From positions 186,001 through 250,000 of the forward strand of contig JAFZKP010000047.1 of NCBI GenBank assembly GCA_017553625.1: DNA of 64,000 bases, read 5' to 3'. Positions within the stretch are counted from its first letter, which is position 1; each line of letters opens with the position of its first letter. The DNA comes from Bacteroidales bacterium (GTDB lineage Bacteria > Bacteroidota > Bacteroidia > Bacteroidales > F082). Position numbers and translations under genes: made by a program. The notes beneath the pieces are model-generated. The model ran no database searches, was not told the origin of the DNA, and saw only the letters and a list, made by a program, of their open reading frames with translations. Of this stretch, positions 11,644 to 50,124 are shown piece by piece.

Positions 11644-12447
11644 ATGAAAAAGTACTTTTTAATCGGATTATTCATAGCTTTCACGGCTTTGACAAACAGT
11701 GCCAAAGCCCAGATATTCCTTGGCGAGGCATTCGTCGGGCTTAACCTTTGCCAGGTCGACGGCGACCAGATCATGGGATTTCACAAAAAGGGCATCAACG
11801 TCGGTGTGGGTGTCATAACGCCCATCTGGACAAAGAACAACTTCAGCCTCGACTTGTCACTTGAGGTTCTTTACAACCAAAAAGGAGCCAAACAAGGCAG
11901 GAAATATTTCGACGACAAAATCGACCCGATAACCGGGATTCCAATCACTGGCGAATACGATTTGAGCCTGAGCTACGGCGAGGTTCCTTTCATGGTTTAT
12001 TTCACCGATAAGAAACTCGTCTCGGCAGGTGTCGGCGTTTCATACGCACGACTGATGTCAGCAGTGGAATACGAGCACGGCGTCAAGACTTCCGCGACAG
12101 CGACAAGCGGCGACTATGACCAGAACGAATTCAACATCTTGGCGGACGTGAAGCTACGCGTGTGGCAGAGATTCAAATTAGGATTCAGATACTCCTACTC
12201 CATCAACAAAATCAGAACCCGCGAATATCACAACCTCGACGGGACATCACTGGGAAACTTCAACCAGTTCAACAATCTCTTCACCCTCAGGCTGACTTAC
12301 GTCTTCAACGAGCGACTCGAAGATTTGCACCGAGAGGAATACATTTACCAAGGCGACAACCCGAAATATCATGAAAAGGCTGTCGAAAGAAAAATCAAAC
12401 GACTGAAGAAGCAGCAAGAGCGAGAAGCGAGACGAAACAAGCAGTAG
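11644..12447 (+). CDS. Outer-membrane beta-barrel protein (PorT-like)
   Basis: A 267-residue protein with a signal peptide ending NSAKAQ near residue 22. I start it at the ATG at 11644; the frame extends to a TTG inside the -7 box. The mature part has alternating strand patterns (VGVGVITPIWT, FSLDLSLEVLYNQKG, MVYFTDKKLVSAGVGVSYARL, FKLGFRYSYSINKI, LFTLRLTYVF) typical of the small 8-10-strand barrels called outer membrane beta-barrel or PorT-family proteins. After the last strand comes a basic tail of about 40 residues (KAVERKIKRLKKQQEREARRN), which is unusual for a barrel. Function unknown. Confidence 0.75.
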   Translation: MKKYFLIGLFIAFTALTNSAKAQIFLGEAFVGLNLCQVDGDQIMGFHKKGINVGVGVITPIWTKNNFSLDLSLEVLYNQKGAKQGRKYFDDKIDPITGIPITGEYDLSLSYGEVPFMVYFTDKKLVSAGVGVSYARLMSAVEYEHGVKTSATATSGDYDQNEFNILADVKLRVWQRFKLGFRYSYSINKIRTREYHNLDGTSLGNFNQFNNLFTLRLTYVFNERLEDLHREEYIYQGDNPKYHEKAVERKIKRLKKQQEREARRNKQ

Positions 12448-36078: not shown

Positions 36079-38538
36079 ATGAGAGAAGTTAAATTCATAA
36101 GGAAACACTATGAAAGACGCGTTCGTTGGGAAGCATTGGTGATCTATGTTTTGGCAATAATTATCTGCGCTTTCGTTATCCATTACATCTCTAATCTAAA
36201 AAAATCAATTATAAATCAACGAGTTACCATTGACCGTAACGAGATGGTTCTCAATTTTACAAATGAGCTCATTCAAAATGTTAACGAGGCGCAATCACAT
36301 GCCCAACTTTATACAATTTCAGGAAATCCCGAACATCTGATTAAGTTCAACGAGAATCTGCAAATGACATCGTCGATAAAAGACTCCATCATCTGTTATT
36401 CTGACAACGATGACAAAAACAAACAGATTTTGAATGACATCGTCGTGCTTTTAGATCGTAAAGAAAACATTATCAAAGAGATAACCCATCAATATGATAT
36501 TTTTAACCCATACGACGAGATAAATAAAATCCTTTCCAACTACAAGCCGAAAGAGAAAACAACGAAAATCGTAGCTGTCACGAAGCAAGACACCATTTAT
36601 ATTAAAGGTGACAAAAAGAGTTTTTTCCAACGTGTTTTTTCTTCTGAAATCCCACGCGACAGTGTCATTTTTGTGACTACTACAACCTACGACACCATCA
36701 CGGAGGAGACGCCTGCCAGTAAAATCGACATAATGGAAGGCATCAAGATATACACCGACAAGGGCAAACAGGAATATCTTGCACGACTGAAAGAGATTGA
36801 AAATCAATACCAAAGCTTCATAAAATCCGACCAGGAAATTTCAGAGGAGATTTCGGGACTTCTCATCGCACTTCATAAGCAAACCCTGACTTCCGTTATG
36901 ATTGCCATCCAAAAAAGCGAGTCGGTCATCCAGCGCAACTTGGATTACTCCATTTATGGCGGCACAATTGCATTGTTTTGTATCATGCTCTTTATCTTCC
37001 TGATTTTCAAAGATATAAAAAGAGTTTCAAGAGCCAGAAAAGCAATGGAGGAAGCCCAGAAACGCACTGAAGAGATTATGGAAAGCCGCCACAAACTGCT
37101 TCTTTCCGTGTCACACGACATCAAGGCGCCGCTATCTTCGGTAATCGGTTACATCGAGTTGATGTTAATGGAACAGCATAACAACGAAGACATCCAACGG
37201 CTTAAATCAATGAAGTATTCATCGCAGCACATACTTTCACTTCTTTCAAATCTTCTTGATTTCTCAAGTCTTGAACAAGGAAAGCAGTTCATCAAGCGTG
37301 CTGACTTCAATGTTTCCGAACTCTGCGACCAGATTGCAACCATGTTCAAGCCAATCGCAGAAAACAAACAACTTAAGTTTTTCTATCATAAAAACATATC
37401 CGACGACTTATACATCAACTCCGATGCACTGAAAATCAAACAAGTTGCGAGCAATATCATATCAAACGCATTAAAATACACCATCGAAGGCGAAGTGCAT
37501 TTTGGTGTGTATCTGATAAACAACAAATTGGTTTTCAACGTATTGGATCAGGGAATTGGCATCCCGACTGAAAAAATTGACGAGCTTTTCAAGCCTTTTA
37601 GCAAAGCCGAAAACAACACAGGTCTCGCCGAAGGAAATGGTTTCGGACTTTTCGTTGTCAAAGGCCTTCTTGAACTTCTTGGTGGAAACCTTAAAGTGAT
37701 GTCAGAACTTGAAAAAGGAAGCCACTTTGAGATTTCAATTCCAGTGAAAGTCGTTGAAAAGAATGAGGTCAAAGAACAAAATAGCACTGACAATCAAATT
37801 ATTACGACAAAAAAGAAGCTCAACATCCTTCTTATCGACGACGACAACAGTCTGCTTGCCGTTATAAGCGCAATGTTGAAAAAGATTGGACATTCTTCCG
37901 ACATCTGCCGTTCATATATCGAGTTCAACAAGTACATCAACGAACTCGACAAATACGACATGATTCTGACCGACCGCGAAATGGGCACTTTCTCCGGCAA
38001 TGATGTCATGAAGACAATAAAAGCCGTTGACAAGGAGAAGAAAATCATCCTGATGACTGCCAGCGATGAATATTCCGAGAGATTCGCCATCACTGAAGGC
38101 TTCGACGGATATATCAAAAAACCATTCAGCATCAAAGATCTGGCTCTTCTTTTAAATGACAACTGGGTTGAAGACGATTGTCAGAAATGTGAGTTCAACG
38201 ACGATTTCCCTCAGCTCTGCACCATGTTTGACAACGACAGCAATGCCATCCGCGACATCTTGCAGACTTTTGTCAAGTCCACTTCCGATAATCTCGTCAC
38301 GCTCAACGATGCCATCACCGAGCATGATTTTGCAAAAGCACAGTCTGTCTGCCATAAAATGCGTCCGATGTTCATACAACTGGAGCAGAAATCCGCCGAC
38401 TATCTCACAGAGATGGACAGCCGCCACGGTCAGGACTCCTCCACCCTGCCGGATTGGGAAGAAAAAGGCATCGAATTCATGAATCAATCCGATGCCCTTT
38501 TGGCGATGCTCGCCGAGAAATATGATATTTCCGATTAG
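36079..38538 (+). CDS. Hybrid sensor histidine kinase with receiver and Hpt domains
   Basis: An 819-residue membrane sensor kinase. Order: membrane helix 17-37; a helical extracytoplasmic sensor region 40-290; membrane helix about 293-311; HisKA with phospho-His346 (SVSHDIKAPLSS); HATPase (DQGIGIPTEKI; GFGLFVVKG); receiver domain about 582-695 with Asp632 (LTDREM); and a C-terminal Hpt domain with His759 (VCHKMRPMF). This is a BarA/ArcB-like phosphorelay within one chain. No partner response regulator is adjacent. The start at 36079 fits the first membrane helix; the frame is open further upstream, antisense to galM, but that part is not needed. Its stop overlaps the typA stop by 4 bases. Confidence 0.9.
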   Translation: MREVKFIRKHYERRVRWEALVIYVLAIIICAFVIHYISNLKKSIINQRVTIDRNEMVLNFTNELIQNVNEAQSHAQLYTISGNPEHLIKFNENLQMTSSIKDSIICYSDNDDKNKQILNDIVVLLDRKENIIKEITHQYDIFNPYDEINKILSNYKPKEKTTKIVAVTKQDTIYIKGDKKSFFQRVFSSEIPRDSVIFVTTTTYDTITEETPASKIDIMEGIKIYTDKGKQEYLARLKEIENQYQSFIKSDQEISEEISGLLIALHKQTLTSVMIAIQKSESVIQRNLDYSIYGGTIALFCIMLFIFLIFKDIKRVSRARKAMEEAQKRTEEIMESRHKLLLSVSHDIKAPLSSVIGYIELMLMEQHNNEDIQRLKSMKYSSQHILSLLSNLLDFSSLEQGKQFIKRADFNVSELCDQIATMFKPIAENKQLKFFYHKNISDDLYINSDALKIKQVASNIISNALKYTIEGEVHFGVYLINNKLVFNVLDQGIGIPTEKIDELFKPFSKAENNTGLAEGNGFGLFVVKGLLELLGGNLKVMSELEKGSHFEISIPVKVVEKNEVKEQNSTDNQIITTKKKLNILLIDDDNSLLAVISAMLKKIGHSSDICRSYIEFNKYINELDKYDMILTDREMGTFSGNDVMKTIKAVDKEKKIILMTASDEYSERFAITEGFDGYIKKPFSIKDLALLLNDNWVEDDCQKCEFNDDFPQLCTMFDNDSNAIRDILQTFVKSTSDNLVTLNDAITEHDFAKAQSVCHKMRPMFIQLEQKSADYLTEMDSRHGQDSSTLPDWEEKGIEFMNQSDALLAMLAEKYDISD

Positions 38539-40355
38539 TCGCTCACTTCCTCGCTGTGTCTGCCGCTTCTCTTCCTCTCAATCTCATCAAGTATGATTTT
38601 CCTCAAACGCAGACTCTTTGGAGTGACTTCAAGATATTCGTCGTCGCGAATGTATTCCATATATTCCTCTAGCGACATTCTTACTGGCGGGATAAGCACA
38701 ATCTTATCGTCCGAACCAGAAGCACGGACGTTGGTCAGATGCTTTGTCTTATTGATATTCAACACAATATCGTTCGCGCGTGTGTTCTCGCCAATGACTT
38801 CGCCCATGTAAACGTCTTCATTCGGCATGACAAAGAACTTGCCGCGGTCTTGAAGTTTCCACAATGCGTAAGGCACAGCCGTTCCGGTCTCCATTGCGAT
38901 AAGCGCACCAACCTCGTGAGTGTCCATCTCTCCTTTCCACGGCTCGTAATCCTTGAAACGGTGCGACATCACCGCTTCGCCTTCGGTTGCAGTGAGCATT
39001 GCGCTTCTCAATCCGATAAGACCTCTCGCTGGAATATCAAAATCAAGATTCATACGGTCGCCTTTAGGAGACATGTTTGTCATCTCACCCTTGTGCTGTG
39101 ATGCCAGTTCAATGACGCGACCGGCAAAATTCTCAGGAACCTGCACGTTCATAACCTCAATAGGTTCGCACTTCTTGCCGTCGATTTCCTTCAAAAGCAC
39201 CTTCGGCTGTCCAATCTGGAACTCATAACCCTCACGGCGCATCGTCTCAACAAGGATACTGAGGTGAAGGATACCACGACCATAAACCATCAAGGAATCA
39301 GGTGAATCCGTGTCTTCAACCTTCAAAGCGAGATTCTTCTCCGTCTCTCTGTAAAGACGCTCGCGCAAATGGCGTGATGTCACAAATTTTCCTTCTCTTC
39401 CAAAGAATGGAGAGTTGTTGATTGTGAACAACATGCTCATTGTAGGCTCATCGACATGAATTGGAGGCAGAGCTTCCGGATTCTCAAAGTCAGCGACAGT
39501 ATCACCGATTTCAAAGTTCTCGAGACCCATCAAAGCAACAATATCACCTGCCATTACAGGCTTTTTCGTTCTCTCTTTGCCAAGACCTTCAAATGTGTAA
39601 AGTTCCTTAATCTGGTTTTTCTCAATCGTACCGTCACGTTTCACCAACGACACATTCATACCAGCCTGAAGGATACCGCGTTTCAGACGCCCCACTGCGA
39701 TACGGCCCACATACGAGCTGTAATCAAGTGATGTGATAAGCATCTGCGGTGTTCCCTCTTCATATTTAGCTTCTGGAATCGTGTTGATAATCACATCCAA
39801 AAGATAAGAGACATCGTTTGTCACATGTGTCCAGTGATCTGACATCCAACCCTGCTTTGACGAACCGAAAACTGTAGGAAAATCAAGCTGGTCGTCGGTT
39901 GCGCCGAGGTTATACATCAGGTCAAAGACAGCTTCCTGGGTCTCTTCAGGTGTACAGTTCGGCTTGTCAACCTTATTAACAACCACGATTGGTTTCAGTC
40001 CGAGTTGGATTGCCTTCTCAAGCACGAAACGTGTCTGAGGCATCGGACCTTCAAAAGCGTCAACCAAAAGGAGAACGCCGTCTGCCATATTCAAAACACG
40101 CTCCACCTCGCCACCGAAATCACTGTGACCAGGAGTATCTATAATGTTGATTTTAACATCTTTATATCTAACGGAAACATTTTTAGACAAGATAGTGATA
40201 CCTCTTTCACGCTCAAGGTCATTGTTATCCAAAATCAGATCCCCATTATCCTTATCCTCCCTAAACAATTTGGACTGGTACAAAATTCTGTCCACCAAAG
40301 TTGTCTTTCCATGGTCAACGTGTGCGATAATCGCAACGTTACGAATACTTGTCAT
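38535..40355 (-). CDS. typA: Ribosome-associated GTPase TypA/BipA
   Basis: A 606-residue translational GTPase related to EF-G that helps ribosome assembly and stress adaptation. The G motifs are clear: G1 AHVDHGKTTL, G2 RERGITILSKN, G3 DTPGHSDF and G4 NKVDKP. EF-G-like beta-barrel and alpha-beta domains follow (GRVIELASQHKGEMTNM; ARGLIGLRSAMLTATEG). It lies 34 bases downstream of the barrel gene of the surface cassette on the same strand, with no terminator between, so read-through transcription is possible. It converges on the kinase gene with overlapping stops. Confidence 0.95.
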   Translation of the reverse strand: MTSIRNVAIIAHVDHGKTTLVDRILYQSKLFREDKDNGDLILDNNDLERERGITILSKNVSVRYKDVKINIIDTPGHSDFGGEVERVLNMADGVLLLVDAFEGPMPQTRFVLEKAIQLGLKPIVVVNKVDKPNCTPEETQEAVFDLMYNLGATDDQLDFPTVFGSSKQGWMSDHWTHVTNDVSYLLDVIINTIPEAKYEEGTPQMLITSLDYSSYVGRIAVGRLKRGILQAGMNVSLVKRDGTIEKNQIKELYTFEGLGKERTKKPVMAGDIVALMGLENFEIGDTVADFENPEALPPIHVDEPTMSMLFTINNSPFFGREGKFVTSRHLRERLYRETEKNLALKVEDTDSPDSLMVYGRGILHLSILVETMRREGYEFQIGQPKVLLKEIDGKKCEPIEVMNVQVPENFAGRVIELASQHKGEMTNMSPKGDRMNLDFDIPARGLIGLRSAMLTATEGEAVMSHRFKDYEPWKGEMDTHEVGALIAMETGTAVPYALWKLQDRGKFFVMPNEDVYMGEVIGENTRANDIVLNINKTKHLTNVRASGSDDKIVLIPPVRMSLEEYMEYIRDDEYLEVTPKSLRLRKIILDEIERKRSGRHSEEVSD

Positions 40356-40389: not shown

Positions 40390-41184
40390 TTACCATCTGT
40401 TCGCTTTCCTGAAGGTGCTGCATGTGCCGGTATTGCGGTAGAAAGGCATACCTATACTTATCATAACCTCCAACCCTCTATTGAATCTATCACCGGTTAT
40501 GTTATACGCATTCACATTTTCTGCCACAGCAGACTCATCTTTCTCCATCTTAGAGAATGTATCTGTAAGACCGTAATTATAACCTGCCTCCAGTTTCAAA
40601 TACAATGCGGTCTGTGGCATGTAAACATCAAAACGGAATCCTAATCCAAACAACACGCTAACATTATATTCCTTCATGTTCGCACTACCTATCTCTATCT
40701 CCTGGTTTATTGCTGTCACACCATCCTGCTTCATGCTTATCTCTCCACCCAACACGTATCCGAAATCAGGCGCGACAAACACATACGGTTTGAATGAGCG
40801 CGACATAATCATATATAAATCAATCGGAACACGGAAATCCACACACCTTGAATTAATCTTGTAGTCCACATTAGTTGCATTATTTGTCTCATACGACACC
40901 ATACCGCCTCTTCCAATGTACATCAACTCTGGTGAAACAGACAACCATCTCGTTACCGGTATCTCCAGATACAATCCGAATGATGGTTTGATCGAATACG
41001 TCGAATTCAAATCCTTCAATTCTGTATCTGTATATGCCATTGTGGCATCGTTCACGCCAAACTTCACGCCCATTGACACAATCTTCGACAAGTTCACACG
41101 CCTGTCGTTACCGATTCGCATCTGTGCCTTCAAAACCCCGCCTGATACCAGGCATAATATTAGCAATATAATAGTCTTTCTCAT
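40390..41184 (-). CDS. Cassette copy B: outer-membrane beta-barrel protein
   Basis: A 264-residue outer-membrane barrel with a signal peptide ending GGVLKAQ near residue 21. The strand-rich mature part (SIKPSFGLYLEIPVTRWLSV, FKPYVFVAPDFGYVLGGEIS, GLGFRFDVYMP, GLEVMISIGMPFYR) fits the small PorT-like barrel group. It is the third gene of cassette B, 11 bases after the lipoprotein gene. It is very similar to the barrel at 44799-45584 over its whole length; both end in FRKxNRW. It may be the outer-membrane partner of the repeat protein encoded first in the cassette, by analogy with SprF-type partners of SprB-like adhesins. That role is inference. Confidence 0.8.
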   Translation of the reverse strand: MRKTIILLILCLVSGGVLKAQMRIGNDRRVNLSKIVSMGVKFGVNDATMAYTDTELKDLNSTYSIKPSFGLYLEIPVTRWLSVSPELMYIGRGGMVSYETNNATNVDYKINSRCVDFRVPIDLYMIMSRSFKPYVFVAPDFGYVLGGEISMKQDGVTAINQEIEIGSANMKEYNVSVLFGLGFRFDVYMPQTALYLKLEAGYNYGLTDTFSKMEKDESAVAENVNAYNITGDRFNRGLEVMISIGMPFYRNTGTCSTFRKANRW

Positions 41185-41195
41185 CTCTTATCTTT

Positions 41196-41837
41196 TTAAT
41201 TGTAGTACCAGTTATAACGCTCAGATAATTTGTCTTTGTCATAATAAAGGAAAAACGAACCTGCCGGATATAAGTCAAGGACACCATTTGATGAATCATA
41301 AACATCCATTATGATGCTCGCATATTTGAGATTTCTTATACCATCTTCGGTAATTCTACCTTTATATATTATTCCTCTCTTTACTCTAACATCGTAAATG
41401 CCATAATCCATCTTCTTGTTTTCAACATAATAAACAGTAAAGTAAGAATCATGACCCATTACATATACAGTGTCAATAACTGTTTCTGTCTCCTCATAAT
41501 GAATTAATTTAGCCACTTTATTATGCTGATTCATGAACTTCAAATACACATTTGGCTCATAAACATCCAACGGCCATGTATTAATATTGACGTTTGAGGT
41601 GTCTCTCTTTTTGGGGGCAAACATAAACTCTCCCTCTATCTTTGGAGGTTTGTCTCCAGTATAAATCTCACCGAATCTCTGTTCAAAAACATCTCTCGCC
41701 TTCTTTGGAATGACTTTTACAATATCCTCAACATACTGTTCTTCACCCAAAAAAGTCAAAGTAGAATCATTGTTTTTCGTGCAGCTAACCATAGACAAAG
41801 CCGCCAGCGACACAATAAATAAACTTATCTTTCTCAT
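41196..41837 (-). CDS. Cassette copy B: unknown lipoprotein
   Basis: A 213-residue lipoprotein (signal MRKISLFIVSLAALSMVSC, Cys19) that I do not recognise as a named family. Recurring features shared with its paralog at 45596-46237 are GEEQYVEDIVKVIP near residue 30, PPKIEGEFMFAPK, EPNVYLKFMNQHNKVA, DTVYVMGHDSYFT, KRGIIYKGR and SERYNWY at the end. It is the middle gene of cassette B, 10 bases after the repeat-protein gene and 11 bases before the barrel gene. It probably sits on the outer membrane next to the barrel. Confidence 0.75.
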   Translation of the reverse strand: MRKISLFIVSLAALSMVSCTKNNDSTLTFLGEEQYVEDIVKVIPKKARDVFEQRFGEIYTGDKPPKIEGEFMFAPKKRDTSNVNINTWPLDVYEPNVYLKFMNQHNKVAKLIHYEETETVIDTVYVMGHDSYFTVYYVENKKMDYGIYDVRVKRGIIYKGRITEDGIRNLKYASIIMDVYDSSNGVLDLYPAGSFFLYYDKDKLSERYNWYYN

Positions 41838-41847
41838 AACTCAAACG

Positions 41848-44610
41848 TTATCTGTCAATTACTACTTGTTTGTAAATATTACCGAGTTTCGTCTCCACGA
41901 GAACCAAATATGAGCCTCTTGGCAGATTATCAACATCGATAAACACCTTGTTTTCATCGCTGTACTGTCCTTTCCAAACGGTCTGACCATACAAGCTTAT
42001 AATCTTAATGCCTGTTATCTCCTCCGATTCGACAACCACCTTATCCTTCGCAGGATTCGGATAGACATCAGCCTCAATCATCGAAACTTCTTCAACGTCA
42101 TAGAAATGACCATTGATTGTGATTTGTCTCTTATTGTCAGGGCTGCAAACATTCTCTGCTGCAACCTGAAGGATACATTCACCAGGTGTTGTCACATACA
42201 AAACGCATTCATTTCCATGAGGCTCAACCACCCACTTGTCGCTTCCGATAAGCGTCCATCTGTAATCGTTGCAATGTTCAACAGGATCAATGACATATTC
42301 ATATCGTCCCGTCTGCAAGTTCGTTGATGCGTAAGTCTCTTTGTAGCCTTGAATCTGGCTTGGTCCGAAATCAAACACTGGAAGTATTGTAAGATTCAGC
42401 ATCACGATACTGTCGCAGCCGTGAATTGAGCTAAGATTCAACGTGTCGTTAACAACTCCGACTTCAGGAGTTATGATGCTGAATCCGTTATCAACATAGC
42501 TCTCACCTTCACAGATCGATTCAACCAATCTTATGTTGTAAGTGTTGTATACTGTAAGATTCAGACGCACAATACTGTCGCAACCATACTGGTTAACAAG
42601 GTTCAAAACCTTATTGTGTACTCCAGGTGACGGATTATTTACTGTAAATCCGTGACCGATATAATCCTCACCATAACAGATATGCTCAGTGAATAAAGTG
42701 TCATTCACCGGATTGACTGTAAGTCTCAGATACACAGTACTGTCGCATCCAAATTGGTTTTCAAGGGACAATGTGTCAAATATTATGCCGACCGGAGGTC
42801 TTACAATATTAAACCCATTCTGGACATAGCTCTCACCATAGCACAATATCGGGTTCAAATATGTGTCATGCAACGGATTTACTGTAAGGGTAAGATACAC
42901 AGTGCTGTCACATCCAAACTGGCTCTGCAGCATCAAACTGTCACTGTATGTGCCAACTGCCGGCTCAATATATTCAAATCCATTCTCAATATAACTTTCC
43001 CCGTAGCAAATGGATTCAACAAAACGTATCTCATAAATTGGCATTACCGACAATCTCAACTTAACAACGCTGTCGCATGCGTATTGGCTCTGCAGGAACA
43101 AAGTATCCTTATAAACTCCAACTTCAAGAGAATCAAGATAGAAGCCGTTTTGAGAATAAATCTCGCCGAAACAAATTGTATCCAAAATCAGAGTGTCATA
43201 CACAGGGTTCACCGACAATTGCAAGAACACCGTGCTGTCACAGTTGTACTGGTTTGCCAAAACCAAAGTGTCGTAATGTAAACCAACCGGCAGATCATCA
43301 AAATAGAATCCATTCTGGTCATATATATCACCGAAACAGATTGCATCTACAATGAGAGTATCATTCACCGGATTCACCATCAGCTGCAGACGCACAGTGC
43401 TGTCGCATCCCAACTGCGTCTGTAATACCAATGAATCGCTATGCGGACCAACTGGCAGAGATTCAATATAGAATCCGTTCTTGGTATAGATATTACCATA
43501 GCAAATAGTATCAAAAATCAGCGTATCAAATACAGGATTCACTGTCAGATCAAGATAAAACATCGTACAACCGCTGGCATTGCTCTCCAAAATCGTGTCA
43601 TAAACCTTTCCTACTTCAGGCTGCGGGATGAAGAACTCATTGTCAATATAATCCTCACCATAGCAAATCGAAGCCACAACAAGCGAGTCAACTACTGGAT
43701 GAACGACAAGGTTAAGACGAATCGTACTGTCACAACCCATCACCGTCTCATATCTTAGGTAGTCATGGTACTCACCTGGAGCCGGATGCAAATATGTGAA
43801 ACCATGTCCGGTGAAATCATCGCCAAAGCAAATAGACTCATTGTAAATAGTTTCATATTCAGGAAGAACAGTGAGAGTCAGATAAACCGTACTGTCACCT
43901 CCATATATATTCTTCAGTTTAAGGCTGTCAATCATAGTGCCGGCAGGCTGTCCGTGAAGAATCACAAAACCTTCAAGCAGATAATCAACACCTTGGCAGA
44001 CTGTATCAGTCAAATATGTTGCAGGCTCAGGCATAACATAAAGATTAAGACTGACAAGACTGTCGCAGCCGTACATGCTCTGCAGCGACTGTGATGCTGT
44101 GTGAACACCTATTTTCGGTTGAATGAAATTGAAACCGTTCTCTGTATAGTCACTTCCTATTGTGATATATGCCGAAATCAAAGTGTCGTAAACAGGATAA
44201 ACCATCAAATCAAGAACCACGATACTGTCGCAACCACCCTGGCTTGTGAAGAACAATGTGTCGTAATTCCAGCCAACTGGAGGGGCGATGACATTAAATC
44301 CGTTATCCGTGTAATCCTCACCGTAACATATTGATTCCCAAAGCACTTTCTCATAACCAGGATTAACAGTCAAATTAAGTACAACGATACTGTCACCACC
44401 ATGAACATTGGTGTAAACAGCCGTGTCAACAAAATGACCGACCTCAGGTTGTATATAAACGAATGCATTATTTATATAATCTTCGCCATGGCATATCGAA
44501 ACATCGAGCACCTTATCAGCATCTCGAATTTCGGATTTAACTTGGGAAAAGACAGAATTACCAATGAAAATCAATAATATAGCCAATGAAATCTTAGATA
44601 AATATCTCAT
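41848..44610 (-). CDS. Cassette copy B: T9SS-secreted protein with 13 Cys-rich repeats
   Basis: A 920-residue surface protein. Signal peptide of 22 residues (ends NSVFSQ). From about residue 37 to 750 there are 13 repeats of about 55 residues with the pattern ICYGEDYxxNGF...PxVG...DTLxL...GCDSxVxLxLTVNP; most carry two cysteines, 30-40 residues apart, which could form a disulfide. A beta domain of about 85 residues follows (YEYVIDPVEHCNDYRW). The last 80 residues are a type A T9SS sorting domain (VYPNPAKDKVVVES ... GSYLVLVETKLGNIYKQVVI). It is the first gene of cassette B, with its own promoter. The likely role is an adhesin or binding protein; the ligand is unknown. Confidence 0.85.
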   Translation of the reverse strand: MRYLSKISLAILLIFIGNSVFSQVKSEIRDADKVLDVSICHGEDYINNAFVYIQPEVGHFVDTAVYTNVHGGDSIVVLNLTVNPGYEKVLWESICYGEDYTDNGFNVIAPPVGWNYDTLFFTSQGGCDSIVVLDLMVYPVYDTLISAYITIGSDYTENGFNFIQPKIGVHTASQSLQSMYGCDSLVSLNLYVMPEPATYLTDTVCQGVDYLLEGFVILHGQPAGTMIDSLKLKNIYGGDSTVYLTLTVLPEYETIYNESICFGDDFTGHGFTYLHPAPGEYHDYLRYETVMGCDSTIRLNLVVHPVVDSLVVASICYGEDYIDNEFFIPQPEVGKVYDTILESNASGCTMFYLDLTVNPVFDTLIFDTICYGNIYTKNGFYIESLPVGPHSDSLVLQTQLGCDSTVRLQLMVNPVNDTLIVDAICFGDIYDQNGFYFDDLPVGLHYDTLVLANQYNCDSTVFLQLSVNPVYDTLILDTICFGEIYSQNGFYLDSLEVGVYKDTLFLQSQYACDSVVKLRLSVMPIYEIRFVESICYGESYIENGFEYIEPAVGTYSDSLMLQSQFGCDSTVYLTLTVNPLHDTYLNPILCYGESYVQNGFNIVRPPVGIIFDTLSLENQFGCDSTVYLRLTVNPVNDTLFTEHICYGEDYIGHGFTVNNPSPGVHNKVLNLVNQYGCDSIVRLNLTVYNTYNIRLVESICEGESYVDNGFSIITPEVGVVNDTLNLSSIHGCDSIVMLNLTILPVFDFGPSQIQGYKETYASTNLQTGRYEYVIDPVEHCNDYRWTLIGSDKWVVEPHGNECVLYVTTPGECILQVAAENVCSPDNKRQITINGHFYDVEEVSMIEADVYPNPAKDKVVVESEEITGIKIISLYGQTVWKGQYSDENKVFIDVDNLPRGSYLVLVETKLGNIYKQVVIDR

Positions 44611-44657
44611 AAAAACAATATTTTAAACACACTTTATAGTCATTATAATAAATCCTG

Positions 44658-44665
44658 CAAATATA
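44658..44665 (-). promoter_or_regulatory. Promoter -7 box of cassette B
   Basis: TATATTTG on the minus strand, 47 bases before the repeat-protein ATG. It lies in the context ATGTCGTATaTTTGCAG, nearly the same as the cassette A promoter at 48103-48110 (one base differs), so the promoter was duplicated with the genes. Confidence 0.7.
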
Positions 44666-44708
44666 CGACATATTTAAATAAATATAAAATAAAAAGTAAA
44701 AAAAATAA

Positions 44709-44753
44709 CAAAAAAAATCTTACAAATTATCAGCAACGACAACCTGTAAGATT
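44709..44753 (-). terminator. Terminator after cassette A
   Basis: On the minus strand the 9-base stem AATCTTACA/TGTAAGATT (44753-44745 with 44724-44716) has a 20-base loop and is followed by a run of T. It lies between the barrel gene of cassette A and the promoter of cassette B, so the two cassettes are probably separate transcripts. A second, smaller stem (TTGAAGC/GCTTCAA) lies just before it. Confidence 0.7.
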
Positions 44754-44798
44754 TAATATGTCTTTTGAAGCTCCGAGGCTTCAATTACGATGGGGAAA

Positions 44799-45584
44799 TT
44801 ACCATCTGTTAGATTTCCTGAAATTGCTGCATGAGCCTGTTTCGCGATAGAATGGCATACCTATACTAATCATCACCTCAACGCCCCTGTTGTATCTGTC
44901 TCCTGTTATGTTGTATGCATTGGTATTACCCGACACAGCAGATTCATTTTTCTCCATTCGTGAGTACGTGTCAAGTAATCCGTAATTGTATCCAGCCGTC
45001 AGCTTCACATAAAGTGCTGTCTTTGGCATATACACATCAAAGCGGAATCCCAATCCAATTAAAGCACTGATATCATATTCCTTCATATTCGCACTGCCTA
45101 TCTCTATCTCTTCAGAAACTCCATCCTTTTTCTGGCTTATATATCCACTCAACACATATCCGAAGTCAGGTGCGACAAAGGCGAAAGGCTTGAATGTTCT
45201 TGATAACTGCATATAGAACTCTACTGGAACACGAAAATCCACATACCTTGAATTTATCTTAAAGTCAACCTGTTGTGAGTTTTTGGTTTCATACGAATAC
45301 ATCGTGCCTCTTCCGACATACATAAGTTCTGGTGACACCGACAGCCAGCTCATTACTGGTATCTCAAGATACACTCCAAACGACGGCTTGATAGAATATG
45401 TCGGGTTCAGGTCTTTCAGTTCTCCATCTGTATATTTCATCATGGCGTCATTCACTCCGAACTTCACACCCATCGACACCACTTTCGAAAGATTGACTCG
45501 CCTGTCATTACCGATTTGCATCTGCGCTTTCAACAAACCGCCAGATAGCATGCATAATATCAGCAATATTATTGTCCTTCTCAT
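44799..45584 (-). CDS. Cassette copy A: outer-membrane beta-barrel protein
   Basis: A 261-residue paralog of the barrel at 40390-41184, with the same signal (ends GGLLKAQ), the same strand pattern and the same C-terminus (SNFRKSNRW). By eye most positions are the same across the whole length, making it the most conserved gene of the duplicated cassette. It ends the cassette A transcript; a terminator follows. It lies 11 bases after the lipoprotein gene, the same gap as in cassette B. Confidence 0.8.
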   Translation of the reverse strand: MRRTIILLILCMLSGGLLKAQMQIGNDRRVNLSKVVSMGVKFGVNDAMMKYTDGELKDLNPTYSIKPSFGVYLEIPVMSWLSVSPELMYVGRGTMYSYETKNSQQVDFKINSRYVDFRVPVEFYMQLSRTFKPFAFVAPDFGYVLSGYISQKKDGVSEEIEIGSANMKEYDISALIGLGFRFDVYMPKTALYVKLTAGYNYGLLDTYSRMEKNESAVSGNTNAYNITGDRYNRGVEVMISIGMPFYRETGSCSNFRKSNRW

Positions 45585-45595
45585 CTCTATTCTTT

Positions 45596-46237
45596 TTATT
45601 CTTTATACCAGTTATATCGCTCTGCCAGATTTTCTGCGGACCCATCCTCATACATGAAGTATGTTCCTACAGGATATAAGTCGACCTCTCCTCCTGATTC
45701 ATCTTCAATATCCATGATAACACTGGCATATTTCAAGTTCTTGATACCCGCATCAACCACTCTACCGCTGTAAATAATACCTCTTTTCATCTTCACCTCA
45801 TACATGCCGTAGTCATACATCACATCCTCCACATAGTAAGCGGTAAAATAACTGTCACGTCCCATAACATAAACAGTGTCGGTTTTTGTCTCAACTTCCT
45901 CGTTATGAATAAATGTCGCCACTCTGTTATGCTGGTCCATGAATTTCAAATAAACATTAGGTTCTACTGCGGTCAAGGGCCAAACACCTTCAAAATTGGT
46001 GTACTTTCTCACTTTCGGAGCGAAAAGGTATTCCCCTTGAATGTTTGGCGGGACAGAGCCCCTGTAAATTCCAAATCTTTTGTTGAATTCCTTCACCATG
46101 TCCTCGGGTATCACTTTCAATATATCCTCGACATATTCTTCCTCGCCGAGAAGCACCAAGGTGGTTTCATCATTCTTGGTACAGCTTATCATAGCAGCAC
46201 CTAATACAAGCATAAGGATTATTGCTCTTATTCTCAT
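45596..46237 (-). CDS. Cassette copy A: unknown lipoprotein
   Basis: A 213-residue paralog of the lipoprotein at 41196-41837. I start it at the ATG at 46237, which matches the paralog's start, puts Cys19 in the lipobox (MISC), leaves a good AAAGGA ribosome site 7 bases upstream, and gives the same 10-base gap to the gene before it. ATGs at 46243 and 46261 are alternatives. Shared blocks are GEEEYVEDILKVIP, PPNIQGEYLFAPK, EPNVYLKFMDQHNRVA, DTVYVMGRDSYFTAYYVED and ERYNWY. Function unknown. Confidence 0.75.
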   Translation of the reverse strand: MRIRAIILMLVLGAAMISCTKNDETTLVLLGEEEYVEDILKVIPEDMVKEFNKRFGIYRGSVPPNIQGEYLFAPKVRKYTNFEGVWPLTAVEPNVYLKFMDQHNRVATFIHNEEVETKTDTVYVMGRDSYFTAYYVEDVMYDYGMYEVKMKRGIIYSGRVVDAGIKNLKYASVIMDIEDESGGEVDLYPVGTYFMYEDGSAENLAERYNWYKE

Positions 46238-46247
46238 AGCCATTCCT

Positions 46248-48002
46248 TTATTTTTCAACAATTATTTGTTTGTAGGCATTACCTTTCTTAGTCTCCACAA
46301 GGACAATGTGCATACCTGCCGACAAATCGCTGACATCCAACACAACCTGTTCCTCGCTGTCATATTCAGCAACTTTTTCTATCTGACCAAGCAAGCCCAT
46401 TATCTTAATGCCTGTTATCATCTCTGATTTCACTGTCATGGTGTTTTTGGCTGGGTTCGGGAACAGACTTGCCTCTATCATTGAATTTTCATCCACACCG
46501 AAGAAAACACCTGTTATTCTTAATGTCTTAAACGTTGTGTCGCACCTGTTCCATGCGCTGACTTTCAAATCATAATTACCTGCAGATGTAACATACAATG
46601 TGCATTTTGTTCCATCAGGTACAACAACCCATTTATCATTGTCAACAACTTCCCAATGATATTCGTCGCAATACTCAATTGGACGGATTGAATATTCATA
46701 TTTTCCAGTCTGGACATTTGTCATTGCATAGGTGTTTTGATACCCTTCTATCCTGCTGTCTCCGAAATCAAACACAGGGAACACCTCAAGTGTCAGGTTA
46801 ATAACACTGTCGCATCCATGAATTGACGGGAGAGTTATTGAAGTATTCAACGTACCGACTTCCGGATTTATGATATCGAAGCCATGCAGTTGGTAATTCT
46901 CACCATGGCAAATCGTATCATAAACAGGAGTCTCAAACAATTCATGAACTTTGAGTTTTATACTAACAATGCTGTCACATCCATAAATCGTATTAAGGAA
47001 CAATGTGTCGAAATGCTCGCCAACAGACGGTCTTTCGAAATAGAAACCGTGACCGTTGAAACTCTCACCATAACAAATCTCTTCATTAAAATTGGTGTTA
47101 TAGTTTGGATTCACAGCCAAATCAAGATACAAGATACTGTCGCATCCGAGATAAGTGTTAAAAAACAGGGTGTCGAGATATGTACCCACAGCCGGCTGAA
47201 TGACATTGAATCCGTTTTCGGTATAATCCTCGCCATCGCACACTGAAGCGCTGATATATATGTCATACCTCGGATTGATTGTCAATGTGAGATATACCAT
47301 ACTGTCGCAGCCTTCCGCAGTGTTTGTCAACAATGAATCATAAATCACTCCGGCAGCCGGATTCTCAAAATTGAATCCATTGATAAGATAACTCTCGCCT
47401 TCACAAATAGTGTCAAACAACAATGAGTCGATACCTGCATCATAAATGTTAAGTTCAAGAGTGACAATGCTGTCGCATCCATACTGGTTCGGCACTGTCA
47501 GCGTATACTGGAATGTTCCGATATCAGGTTTGGTGATGTCGAATCCATTTAACTGATAATTCCTACCATGACAAATAGTATCATACAACAATGTATCTGA
47601 TAACGGATTGATAATCAATGCAAGATAAACAGTGCTGTCGCATCCGAGCATGCTCTGCAAATGCAATGTATCATTAAATTCACCAACAGGAATTGAATCC
47701 AACACTGCACCACCCCACTCATAAGGTTCGCCAAAACAAATAGTGTCATTTACTGTTATATTGAATGTCGGGTTAACAGTCAGCTGAAGGTTCACAACAC
47801 TATCTTCGGTAATTGGTATTGAATATTCCCATAATCCAGCGGTATCAGGAGTTAATGTTGTCGAGTTTATTAAATACGGATCGCCAAGACATATCGTATC
47901 CAACAGATTATACGTCACAGGATCTCTGTTAACATTCTGGCCACAAACTGGAAATGCAAGCAAAAGCAGCATAAAAATATGCAAAATTCTTTTCTTTATC
48001 AT
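46248..48002 (-). CDS. Cassette copy A: T9SS-secreted protein with 7 Cys-rich repeats
   Basis: A 584-residue surface protein, the shorter paralog of the 920-residue protein. I start it at the ATG at 48002, giving the signal MIKKRILHIFMLLLLAFPVCGQ; the frame is open to 48116 but that part holds the promoter. Seven repeats of about 55 residues run from about 35 to 420 (for example TICHGRNYQLNGFDI ... YGCDSIVTLELNIY), then a beta domain (YEYSIRPIEYCDEYHW) and an 80-residue type A T9SS sorting domain (LFPNPAKNTMTVKS ... GNAYKQIIVEK). The first two repeats are the most divergent. Likely a surface adhesin or binding protein. Confidence 0.85.
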   Translation of the reverse strand: MIKKRILHIFMLLLLAFPVCGQNVNRDPVTYNLLDTICLGDPYLINSTTLTPDTAGLWEYSIPITEDSVVNLQLTVNPTFNITVNDTICFGEPYEWGGAVLDSIPVGEFNDTLHLQSMLGCDSTVYLALIINPLSDTLLYDTICHGRNYQLNGFDITKPDIGTFQYTLTVPNQYGCDSIVTLELNIYDAGIDSLLFDTICEGESYLINGFNFENPAAGVIYDSLLTNTAEGCDSMVYLTLTINPRYDIYISASVCDGEDYTENGFNVIQPAVGTYLDTLFFNTYLGCDSILYLDLAVNPNYNTNFNEEICYGESFNGHGFYFERPSVGEHFDTLFLNTIYGCDSIVSIKLKVHELFETPVYDTICHGENYQLHGFDIINPEVGTLNTSITLPSIHGCDSVINLTLEVFPVFDFGDSRIEGYQNTYAMTNVQTGKYEYSIRPIEYCDEYHWEVVDNDKWVVVPDGTKCTLYVTSAGNYDLKVSAWNRCDTTFKTLRITGVFFGVDENSMIEASLFPNPAKNTMTVKSEMITGIKIMGLLGQIEKVAEYDSEEQVVLDVSDLSAGMHIVLVETKKGNAYKQIIVEK

Positions 48003-48102
48003 ATCTTTAAATAATCTCACTTTATTAAAAATCAACATGTTACAATTAGAAAAACTCTCATTCCGAAGCACTGTTATGAGATTTTCCCTATTTAACAATC
48101 TG

Positions 48103-48181
48103 CAAAAATACGACATTTTTTGAAAAAATGAAATTTTATGTCAAAAAAATATTCAAAATATTAAAAAAAACTTTACTTTTG
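48103..48181. promoter_or_regulatory. Divergent promoters for cassette A and recQ
   Basis: TATTTTTG on the minus strand (48110-48103) for cassette A, in the context ATGTCGTATtTTTGCAG shared with cassette B, with a leader of about 95 bases to the ATG at 48002. TACTTTTG on the plus strand (48174-48181) for recQ, 14 bases before its ATG. The cassette A leader contains an inverted repeat (GAAAA..TCTCAT with ATGAGATTTTC, 48049-48086). Confidence 0.65.
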
Positions 48182-48195
48182 CAAAAAGCGCATAC

Positions 48196-50124
48196 ATGAG
48201 TGAACTTACAAGGTCGGTTTTGGTAAGATATTGGGGGTATCCTTCTTTCCGCCCAATGCAGGAAGACATTGTAGATTCTGTTATTGCCGGACGCGACACA
48301 CTTGCGCTTTTACCTACAGGAGGAGGAAAGTCGATATGCTTTCAGGTTCCTGCGATGGCGATGGACGGCGTGTGCATTGTAGTTACGCCGCTCATCTCGC
48401 TCATGAAAGACCAGGTGCTTCATCTCAAAAGGATAAACATCGCTGCAGCAGCCATTTACTCAGGAATGCATCCGAGCGAGGTCGAGATTGCATACAACAA
48501 AGCGGTTTTCGGAAGCCTCAAGTTTCTCTATGTGTCACCAGAGCGTCTCATGACCGACACTTTCATTGAGGCAATCAAAAAGATGAAGGTGTGCCTGCTT
48601 GCCATCGACGAGTCGCATTGCATATCGCAGTGGGGCTATGATTTCCGTCCGCCCTATTTGAAAATTGCCGAAATACGACCATACATTCCAAACACGCCAG
48701 TACTGGCACTTACAGCCACAGCAACCCCAAACGTTGTCGACGACATACAGTTCAGGCTCGGCTTTAAGGAGAAAAACGTGTTCCAGACAAGCTACGAACG
48801 CAAAAACGTGACTTACAATGTCATAAAAACCGCTGACAAATACAACCTCATGTACCGTCTCTTCATGAAGATGGACAGAGGCAGCGGCATAGTTTACGTC
48901 CGTAGCCGCAAACGCACCAAGATTATCGCTGACTGGCTGCAGTCAGTTGGTGTCAGCGCCACGTATTATCATGCGGGCATCGACGCCAAGACCCGCGACG
49001 AAAGGCAGAAGACGTGGATGGAAGGAAGGATTAAAGTCATTGTGGCGACCAACGCATTTGGCATGGGTATCGACAAGCCCGACGTGCGCGTGGTTGTTCA
49101 CATGGACCTCCCCGACAGCCTCGAAGCTTATTTCCAGGAAGCAGGAAGAGCCGGCCGTGACCTGAAACCGTCCGAAGCATTTCTGCTTGTTGCCGACAGC
49201 GACATTAAACAACTCAAAGACAACCTGCAACAGTCATATCCTGAACTCGAAAGAATTAAAACCATTTACAACGCGGTAGGCAATTATCTTCAAATTCCTA
49301 ATGGCGCAGGTAAAGGTCAAAGCTATCCTTTTGACATGGCTGAATTCAGCAAAACATACGGATTCTCACTCATAGAAGTGTTCAACTCATTGAAACTCAT
49401 GGAAAGAGAAGGATTCTTCGTGTTGTCAGAAGCCATGAGCACACCTTCACAGCTTATGATTAAGGCAAGCCGTGAAGACCTTTATCGTTTTCAGGTTGAA
49501 TATGCTGAGTTTGACACCTTAATTAAATATCTATTAAGAAACTATCCTGGAATTTTGTCGGACTTTGTGAAGATACGAGAAGAGCAGATAAGCCAGAAGC
49601 TCGGAATTGATGTGACAAAAGTTGAAAACACGCTGAAAAAACTGGAGAGATACAACTTCCTTACTTATATTCAACGAAGCGACAAACCTCAGATTCAATA
49701 TCTAACGGAGCATCAGGACACGAAACACTTCTCATTATCCGACGAGGTTTACAAAGACAGGAAAGAAGACGCCACCCGTCGTGTGCAGGCCGTGATTGAC
49801 TTCGTCAACAACGACGACGAATGCCGCAGTGTTCAGCTTCTTCGATATTTCGGCGAAAAAATCAAGACAAGATGCGGGAAATGCGACGTGTGCAGCATCC
49901 GCAATCAGATGAAAATCAACGATGAGGAATACAAAAACATCAGTGAGATAATTCTCGGCGAGTTAAAAAAACGCATCGTTCCTCTTTATGAGACACCGTC
50001 ATTGGCTAAAAACCATCTTGAAGAAAAGGTCTTGGAGACTGTGCGTTGGATGCTCGACAACGGTGTCATCGAGCAGGACGAGAACGGTAACCTGAGAGAG
50101 AAGAGGCAAGGCACGCTGTTCTAA
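48196..50124 (+). CDS. recQ: ATP-dependent DNA helicase RecQ
   Basis: A 642-residue 3'-5' DNA helicase for recombination and repair. Helicase motifs: motif I LLPTGGGKSICFQ, motif II DESHCISQWGYDFRPPY, motif III LALTATATPNV, motif VI QEAGRAGRD. The zinc-binding RecQ C-terminal region shows RYFGEKIKTRCGKCDVC. The usual C-terminal HRDC domain is not evident; the protein ends in a shorter winged-helix-like tail. It has its own promoter and ends before a hairpin shared with hup. Confidence 0.95.
   Translation: MSELTRSVLVRYWGYPSFRPMQEDIVDSVIAGRDTLALLPTGGGKSICFQVPAMAMDGVCIVVTPLISLMKDQVLHLKRINIAAAAIYSGMHPSEVEIAYNKAVFGSLKFLYVSPERLMTDTFIEAIKKMKVCLLAIDESHCISQWGYDFRPPYLKIAEIRPYIPNTPVLALTATATPNVVDDIQFRLGFKEKNVFQTSYERKNVTYNVIKTADKYNLMYRLFMKMDRGSGIVYVRSRKRTKIIADWLQSVGVSATYYHAGIDAKTRDERQKTWMEGRIKVIVATNAFGMGIDKPDVRVVVHMDLPDSLEAYFQEAGRAGRDLKPSEAFLLVADSDIKQLKDNLQQSYPELERIKTIYNAVGNYLQIPNGAGKGQSYPFDMAEFSKTYGFSLIEVFNSLKLMEREGFFVLSEAMSTPSQLMIKASREDLYRFQVEYAEFDTLIKYLLRNYPGILSDFVKIREEQISQKLGIDVTKVENTLKKLERYNFLTYIQRSDKPQIQYLTEHQDTKHFSLSDEVYKDRKEDATRRVQAVIDFVNNDDECRSVQLLRYFGEKIKTRCGKCDVCSIRNQMKINDEEYKNISEIILGELKKRIVPLYETPSLAKNHLEEKVLETVRWMLDNGVIEQDENGNLREKRQGTLF

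Follow-up and report, generated by a model that had tools for sequence, protein, structure and literature searches.

Two described systems, SprB/SprF and PG1035/PorP, pair a surface protein with an outer-membrane barrel specific to that cargo, and in the former the two genes lie side by side (PMC12635249, PMC9143113). Both handle type B cargo of the type IX secretion system (T9SS), and the nearest described arrangement is such a type B cargo with a PorP-like barrel, joined in Porphyromonas gingivalis by the periplasmic lipoprotein PorE (PMC9143113). Type A cargo is collected by PorV and anchored by anionic lipopolysaccharide (A-LPS), and both PorV and the PorP-like carriers are 14-stranded FadL-type barrels (PMC9143113). 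In Flavobacterium johnsoniae, SprF and PorG are each joined through tail cysteines, by disulfide bonds, to Cys343 of GldK, a lipoprotein of the moving track; SprF has a conserved Cys-x-Cys pair in its tail, one member of which makes the bond, and PorG, a small barrel whose periplasmic tail is short, has just one tail cysteine in P. gingivalis (PMC12635249). Here we describe a locus in a 64,000-nucleotide stretch of a Bacteroidales genome (GCA_017553625.1, contig JAFZKP010000047.1, positions 186,001 to 250,000), which we call the window and which is part of contig 1 of an assembly of 2.47 Mb in 52 contigs that is 87% complete. Two tandem cassettes in the window each encode a T9SS type A repeat protein, a lipoprotein of an unnamed family that we call LIP, and a small outer-membrane beta-barrel with a cysteine in its tail, and we find that this trio is a conserved unit within the genus.

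The cassettes lie on the minus strand between two genes that we take from their sequences to be recQ and typA (Table 1). The gaps between the genes are exactly 10 and 11 bases in both copies, and the six open frames, their order, strand and positions, together with the matching gaps, are as a first-pass annotation of the window had given them. An in-frame ATG at 46243 would cut the first gap of cassette A to 4 bases, and the repeat protein of that cassette has an alternative longer start at 48116 whose ATG falls within the promoter-like element. PF18962 and TIGR04183, models of the T9SS type A sorting domain, score above their curated cut-offs in the two repeat proteins, and so does PF13568 in the two barrels. 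Each lipoprotein shows, by eye, a cysteine in a lipobox-like context, and neither matches a Pfam or NCBIfam family above cut-off. Two further genomes, represented by loci L111 and L226, have this double cassette with the same genes on either side. The records of these and the other relatives used here are Bacteroidales metagenome assemblies, several of them from goat, horse, deer and buffalo guts.

Table 1. Coordinates of the double cassette and adjoining features in the window
Feature	Position	Strand	Description
Flanking gene, typA-like GTPase	38535..40355	-	Syntenic in L111 and L226
Cassette B gene 3	40390..41184	-	Small beta-barrel, PF13568, 264 residues, C-tail Cys255
Cassette B gene 2	41196..41837	-	LIP lipoprotein, 213 residues
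Cassette B gene 1	41848..44610	-	T9SS type A repeat protein, 920 residues, about 13 repeats of 55 residues, sorting domain
Promoter-like element ATGTCGTATATTTGCAG	44655..44671	-	5' of cassette B
Terminator-like hairpin	44715..44754	-	Between the cassettes, 18 pairs then T run
Cassette A gene 3	44799..45584	-	Small outer-membrane beta-barrel, PF13568, 261 residues, C-tail Cys252 the sole cysteine after residue 25
Cassette A gene 2	45596..46237	-	Lipoprotein, unnamed family LIP, 213 residues, lipobox ...MISC
Cassette A gene 1	46248..48002	-	T9SS type A repeat protein, 584 residues, signal peptide, about 7 repeats of 55 residues, C-terminal sorting domain
Promoter-like element ATGTCGTATTTTTGCAG	48100..48116	-	5' of cassette A
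Flanking gene, recQ-like helicase	48196..50124	+	Syntenic in L111 and L226

The trio differs from SprB/SprF and PG1035/PorP in its type A cargo, its small PF13568 barrel and the lipoprotein gene in between, and it differs from the type B arrangement with PorE in cargo type, barrel family and lipoprotein family, with the lipoprotein gene regularly standing between the other two. Where SprF has its Cys-x-Cys pair, the trio barrel has a single conserved tail cysteine. The genome itself has 90 matches to type A sorting domains, one PorP (the sole match to TIGR03519, just before porK), one type B protein outside the window, PorK, and one gene of PF19573 (DUF6089), the family to which we take PorG to belong. 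Thus at least the PorP, type B cargo, PorK and PorG-type parts of a T9SS are present in the genome. Neither window barrel matches the PorP/SprF model TIGR03519 in NCBIfam up to E 1, and the kinship with SprB/SprF that the first-pass annotation had suggested is contradicted by this, by the type A cargo, and by the separate PorP and type B protein. Our search of the open-licence literature, which excluded subscription papers and preprints, found no paper on such a trio among the titles and abstracts listed.

We next turn to the neighbourhood of LIP genes elsewhere. A profile model was built from 29 LIP lipoproteins, and 60 regions were picked from its stronger matches in genomes of the genus outside the model input (set A), in which a script counted 62 LIP genes in 59 regions. 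When a partner within two genes was accepted, a barrel of the family lay downstream on the same strand of 61 of the 62, and a T9SS gene lay upstream on the same strand of 59; with direct neighbours only, the counts were 60 and 58. For two more LIP genes the T9SS gene was convergent and lay behind the barrel, and one (L183) had neither an upstream nor a convergent cargo and a T9SS gene two genes behind its barrel. By comparison, a T9SS gene was the upstream neighbour of only 8 of 181 other genes of at least 150 residues in the same regions. Gene picking had hidden the L178 lipoprotein and the L220 and L061 barrels under antisense frames, all of which are present, and with such frames added the counts become 63/63 for the barrel and 60/63 for upstream cargo, with 2 convergent. 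Most gaps within the trios are below 40 bases or are small overlaps. Three loci of set A also occur under a second name (L213 = L111, L205 = L122, L199 = L115). Many loci are orthologous, so that these synteny counts are not independent events. Neighbour relations were what the first-pass annotation had proposed for telling a unit from a chance grouping, and within the genus they clearly favor the unit. From these counts, we conclude that the trio is a real, conserved three-gene unit within the genus and not a chance grouping.

A second set, fetched by barrel matches and therefore biased for barrels (set B), held 29 LIP genes with 28 barrels (29 with the hidden L061 barrel), 21 upstream T9SS genes and 4 convergent ones; four LIP genes had no cargo, two of them at contig ends. 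Of 40 genomes, 25 gave relatives in the barrel search, including 22 of the 24 of the genus, and the L063 barrel, for which the search reported a stop, is intact, that stop being its own end. At E <=1e-6 the LIP model matched 98/99 genomes of the genus, 30/393 of the order and 11/395 of the phylum, the own genome being counted each time. By best match, 79 of the 99 genus genomes were strong (E <=1e-30), 19 had weaker matches only and 1 had none. Twenty weak-match loci were fetched, chosen among those with listed positions: nine had a family barrel, eight of these with T9SS cargo upstream, and the other 11 were a different gene with no barrel or cargo adjoining. Ten of the 19 weak-match genomes were examined, and the match read was this other gene in eight and belonged to a pair or trio in two (G416, G477). 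The trio was also present in family f4, at L099 and L094.

The own genome carries a third LIP-barrel pair (L016:7532-12043, contig 7) beside a gene whose sequence we take to be that of alaS, with a 986-residue T9SS protein convergent to the barrel, stop against stop. A convergent T9SS gene behind the barrel was found at this alaS site in 11 distinct further loci (13 including duplicates).

Some arrangements depart from these layouts. At L133 (3314-15487), and also at L243 and L244, a T9SS gene stands between the lipoprotein and the barrel, and in the L133 interval two lipoproteins, two barrels and three T9SS proteins are interleaved. At L018:9718-13056, a T9SS protein (subtilase-like by eye) and a PF13568 barrel converge stop to stop with no LIP gene. 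A convergence of a barrel and a T9SS gene on contig 46 was considered as a further trio and rejected, there being no lipoprotein there.

The cargo itself is diverse. The type A model TIGR04183 was matched by both window cargo proteins and by ten of ten picked homologues (one below cut-off), and TIGR04131 by none. A Pfam scan of ten upstream genes gave five IgGFc-binding proteins, mostly with PKD domains, one protein with FG-GAP repeats, one Ig_7/PKD_6 array and two with the sorting domain alone above cut-off; the upstream gene at L090 encodes a transglutaminase-like protein that is not T9SS cargo. When 92 distinct trios were clustered by cargo ectodomain, they fell into families of 32, 26, 12, 6, 6 and 2 with 8 singles. 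We then placed the labels of six cargo families (84 rows) on quick trees of the two partner proteins and counted 12 label changes for the barrel and 11 for LIP, compared with a minimum of 5 and shuffled means of 43.7 and 43.6; the shuffling asks only whether labels cluster, and orthologous near-copies add to that clustering. Thus the lipoprotein and barrel clades follow cargo type, and since the label changes exceed the minimum, cargo exchange has probably happened as well. At L226, one of the two recQ-typA cassettes carries a 2668-residue cargo of another family.

Among the cysteine columns of LIP, just the lipidated one is almost always occupied (103/104 sequences), with 27/104 in the next-richest. 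A lysine stands at position +3 in 76 of 90 distinct LIP N-termini, compared with 19 of 51 other lipoprotein-like N-termini. The surface-export signal of Bacteroidota lipoproteins is C-x-K-(D/E)2 behind the lipidated cysteine (PMC5080379), and the LIP lysine is reminiscent of it. None of 29 family members matches Pfam at E 0.01, and a PDB sequence search with the LIP profile returned four matches only, all at E >= 0.1, which we take as chance.

Related domains occur in other settings. A second, longer lipoprotein-like gene (mostly 350-417 residues) with a weakly LIP-like domain was seen at L230-L237 and L239-L241, mostly with genes of about 412 and 340 residues after it and with no barrel or T9SS cargo. 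The LIP domain also lies inside longer lipoproteins with extra domains (L102:7155-8711, L104:8029-9876, L106:7288-8607, L103:7954-10044), one with collagen-like repeats and two with a C-terminal domain that we take by its look to be FISUMP. On C11, a T9SS protein gave a weak match to LIP (E 0.117), which was set aside as chance.

The barrels share a short tail behind the last strand, and in a curated alignment this tail has one cysteine in 28/28 trio barrels. Both ends of outer-membrane barrels are normally periplasmic. Among distinct barrels adjoining a lipoprotein, the tail cysteine was found in 99 of 101 by alignment column, with 19/101 in the next-richest cysteine column; we prefer this count over that of any cysteine in the last 32 residues (106/106), which includes last-strand cysteines. 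One barrel without it (L086) is cut by a contig end. The tail cysteine is also present in 9/9 barrels from the weak-match loci and in the barrels of L220, L061 and L178. The mature part of 28 of the 101 has no other cysteine, and therefore no internal bond is possible in those. A family barrel without a lipoprotein neighbor (L088) has no tail cysteine, and none of nine other PF13568 barrels of the own genome (of ten present, by eye) has a cysteine behind the last strand, two of these nine having one in or just before it. A PDB sequence search with the barrel profile found nothing. A further PF13568 barrel in the window (11644-12447, plus strand) has a Lys/Arg-rich C-tail without cysteine.

A possible partner for this cysteine is suggested by PorK. 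GldK has cysteines at 285 and 343, 58 apart (PMC12635249), and the PorK of the own genome has both conserved cysteines, at 264 and 320, 56 apart, so that the second is the counterpart of GldK Cys343 by order and spacing. The GCF motif of P. gingivalis PorK lines up with it, and a counterpart is present in 14/14 PorK loci. The tails of PorG-type proteins in these genomes are laid out like those of the trio barrels, with one invariant cysteine (13 aligned), and the profile of the trio barrel matches that of the PorG-type proteins distantly (probability 96.7, E 3.8e-10), with the tail cysteines paired in the alignment. In contrast to the trio barrels, PorG is a general secretion component that is not linked to a cargo, and it belongs to another Pfam family with a separate PF19573 gene here; none of 28 trio-type barrels matches PF19573 at E 0.01.

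We propose that the three genes of a cassette form an operon whose products make up one surface complex. Its first gene would supply a repetitive, probably adhesive protein that is exported through the T9SS by its type A signal, and LIP, which may be exposed on the surface, and the small barrel would be dedicated outer-membrane partners in contact with that cargo. The LIP-barrel pair goes with its cargo type and has been put to repeated use, at several chromosomal sites, beside unrelated cargo. The tail cysteine of the barrel, expected to face the periplasm, would make an intermolecular disulfide below the membrane and thereby hold the surface protein mechanically from inside; its best candidate partner is the reactive PorK cysteine in the PorKN ring, by analogy with the bonds of PorG and SprF to GldK. 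We consider it fairly probable that cargo, LIP and barrel assemble in the outer membrane into a single complex by which the exported protein is held, and that the barrel has a bonded partner in the periplasm. That this partner is PorK is a tentative suggestion from the analogy, with the chances against it, and we would be more doubtful still of the full claim that trio barrels join SprF and PorG as a third disulfide-tethered class, in which a reusable LIP-barrel pair couples diverse type A adhesins to a moving or energized PorKN ring.

Several observations weigh against this proposal. Type A cargo has the PorV/A-LPS route, and a dedicated partner is therefore not needed for export. Genomes with a T9SS generally have the PorK cysteine, and its presence is therefore necessary and not discriminating. 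The strict C-x-K-(D/E)2 signal follows the lipidated cysteine in 5/104 LIPs, the cargo-bearing L099 barrel has no tail and no tail cysteine, and three LIP-barrel pairs (L098, L090, L229) have no adjoining cargo. Outside the genus and family f4, a T9SS gene lies directly upstream in 1 of 22 LIP loci (L110). Finally, by profile the trio barrel is nearest to OmpA-fused barrels and not to PorG: its closest relatives are PF13568 barrels that run into an OmpA domain (hhalign probability 100, E 2e-46).

This last kinship leads to the strongest rival explanation, that the tail cysteine joins barrels to one another or to an OmpA-like protein in disulfide oligomers that have nothing to do with PorK. OmpA oligomers are mentioned for P. 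gingivalis and T. forsythia (PMC12635249), and the fusions carry two cysteines in the linker/OmpA part together in 6/7, both being absent in the seventh. Yet this paired presence and loss suggests an internal bond in the fusions, the profile alignment with them stops before the tail cysteine and so does not support common descent of the cysteines, and PF00691, present in L078, matches neither the window barrels nor any of the 28 trio-type barrels scanned. From the fusions the trio barrels also differ by the missing OmpA domain, the single conserved tail cysteine and the T9SS cargo beside them. We regard such a self or OmpA link as a possibility to be taken seriously, while expecting it to be wrong. 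Outside the genus and f4, an OmpA-fused OMP_b-brl_2 barrel lies next to a LIP gene or one gene away in 5 of the 22 loci, each in a different genome. A simple history would be that an old lipoprotein-barrel pair lost its OmpA domain and joined T9SS cargo.

None of those five loci has T9SS cargo directly upstream and the other 17 have no adjoining family barrel, which, together with the three cargo-less pairs, would fit a LIP-barrel pair that is an independent envelope unit (for example, for OmpA-like wall attachment) with a T9SS gene merely as its frequent neighbor. Against such independence stand the same-strand cargo upstream of nearly all LIP genes of the genus sample, mostly across short gaps, the sorting of cargo types with the clades of the pair, and the convergent T9SS genes at the alaS site, and we think it unlikely. 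The same sorting, a pattern also supposed for PorP-like proteins and type B cargo (PMC9143113), could be read as LIP and barrel being a cargo-specific secretion carrier that replaces PorV, as SprF serves SprB. The cargo, however, has ordinary type A sorting domains, which use PorV, and a small PF13568 barrel is unlike the 14-stranded FadL-type carriers (PMC9143113), so we give this carrier role a low probability, somewhat below one in which the pair is independent. For a chance grouping of three genes that was then duplicated, nothing was found beyond the two window copies; it is refuted by the synteny counts and by the same double cassette with the same flanks in L111 and L226, and its probability is negligible.

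If cargo, LIP and barrel do form one complex, a cargo-matched LIP-barrel pair in most genomes of the genus would be a second way to hold type A cargo, for whose transfer to A-LPS a general carrier is currently considered responsible (PMC9143113). The near-invariant tail cysteine also allows a cheap test of whether disulfide coupling to GldK/PorK extends beyond SprF and PorG. If coupling to the PorKN ring were true, gut bacteria could use the secretion motor to hold surface proteins, pull on them or move them.

The two copies in the window differ unequally. Identity between A and B is 78.5% for the barrel, 57.8% for the lipoprotein, 51.4% for the last 175 residues of the repeat protein and 43.8% for its remainder (400 aligned residues). 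The order of conservation in the first-pass annotation (barrel, then lipoprotein, then repeat protein) thus stands, though to call the barrels nearly the same, as it did, somewhat overstates their likeness. The ratio of nonsynonymous to synonymous substitution rates (dN/dS) was measured against the closest relative, L111 (a goat omasum record): the two repeat proteins have 0.083 and 0.085, the two lipoproteins 0.072 and 0.063, and the two barrels 0.152 and 0.063, compared with 0.011 for typA and 0.033 for recQ. All six cassette genes are under purifying selection of similar degree, laxer than that on the flanking genes.

In L226, the two barrels are 82.2% identical to each other; between L226 and the window, barrels are 48-50% alike and lipoproteins 55-60%. 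Since the barrels are so alike within each genome and so different between genomes, they are homogenized inside each genome, most simply by gene conversion in the recQ-typA double cassette, and the gradient between the window copies is largely the trace of this homogenization. The A and B forms of the lipoprotein are 56-58% identical within a genome, about as far apart as between genomes. Other tandem pairs lack clear homogenization (barrel 55.2 and lipoprotein 66.5 at L190, 41.5 and 29.5 at L133), and at single sites across the genus the conservation order of the parts varies from site to site. The idea of a diversifying exposed protein next to constant membrane parts does not survive these comparisons: orthologous repeat proteins evolve no faster by dN/dS, and between recQ-typA loci the barrels are less alike than the lipoproteins. 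We therefore rejected graded conservation as a sign of diversification, on the dN/dS values, the L226 comparison and the site-dependent order. Across window positions 40390-45584 and in L226, concerted evolution is seemingly confined to one gene of three, the barrel and not the lipoprotein.

The first-pass annotation had also noted a promoter context common to both cassettes, and ATGTCGTATNTTTGCAG does occur at these two sites and nowhere else in the window (expected 0). Its core TANNTTTGCA has 21 sites in the window compared with 3.5 expected and therefore looks like an ordinary promoter element of this genome; it is likely a general one, and for the same reason a shared promoter as a special regulatory link between the cassettes was rejected. 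The terminator that had been placed between the copies was found again as the hairpin of Table 1, read from 44754 to 44715.

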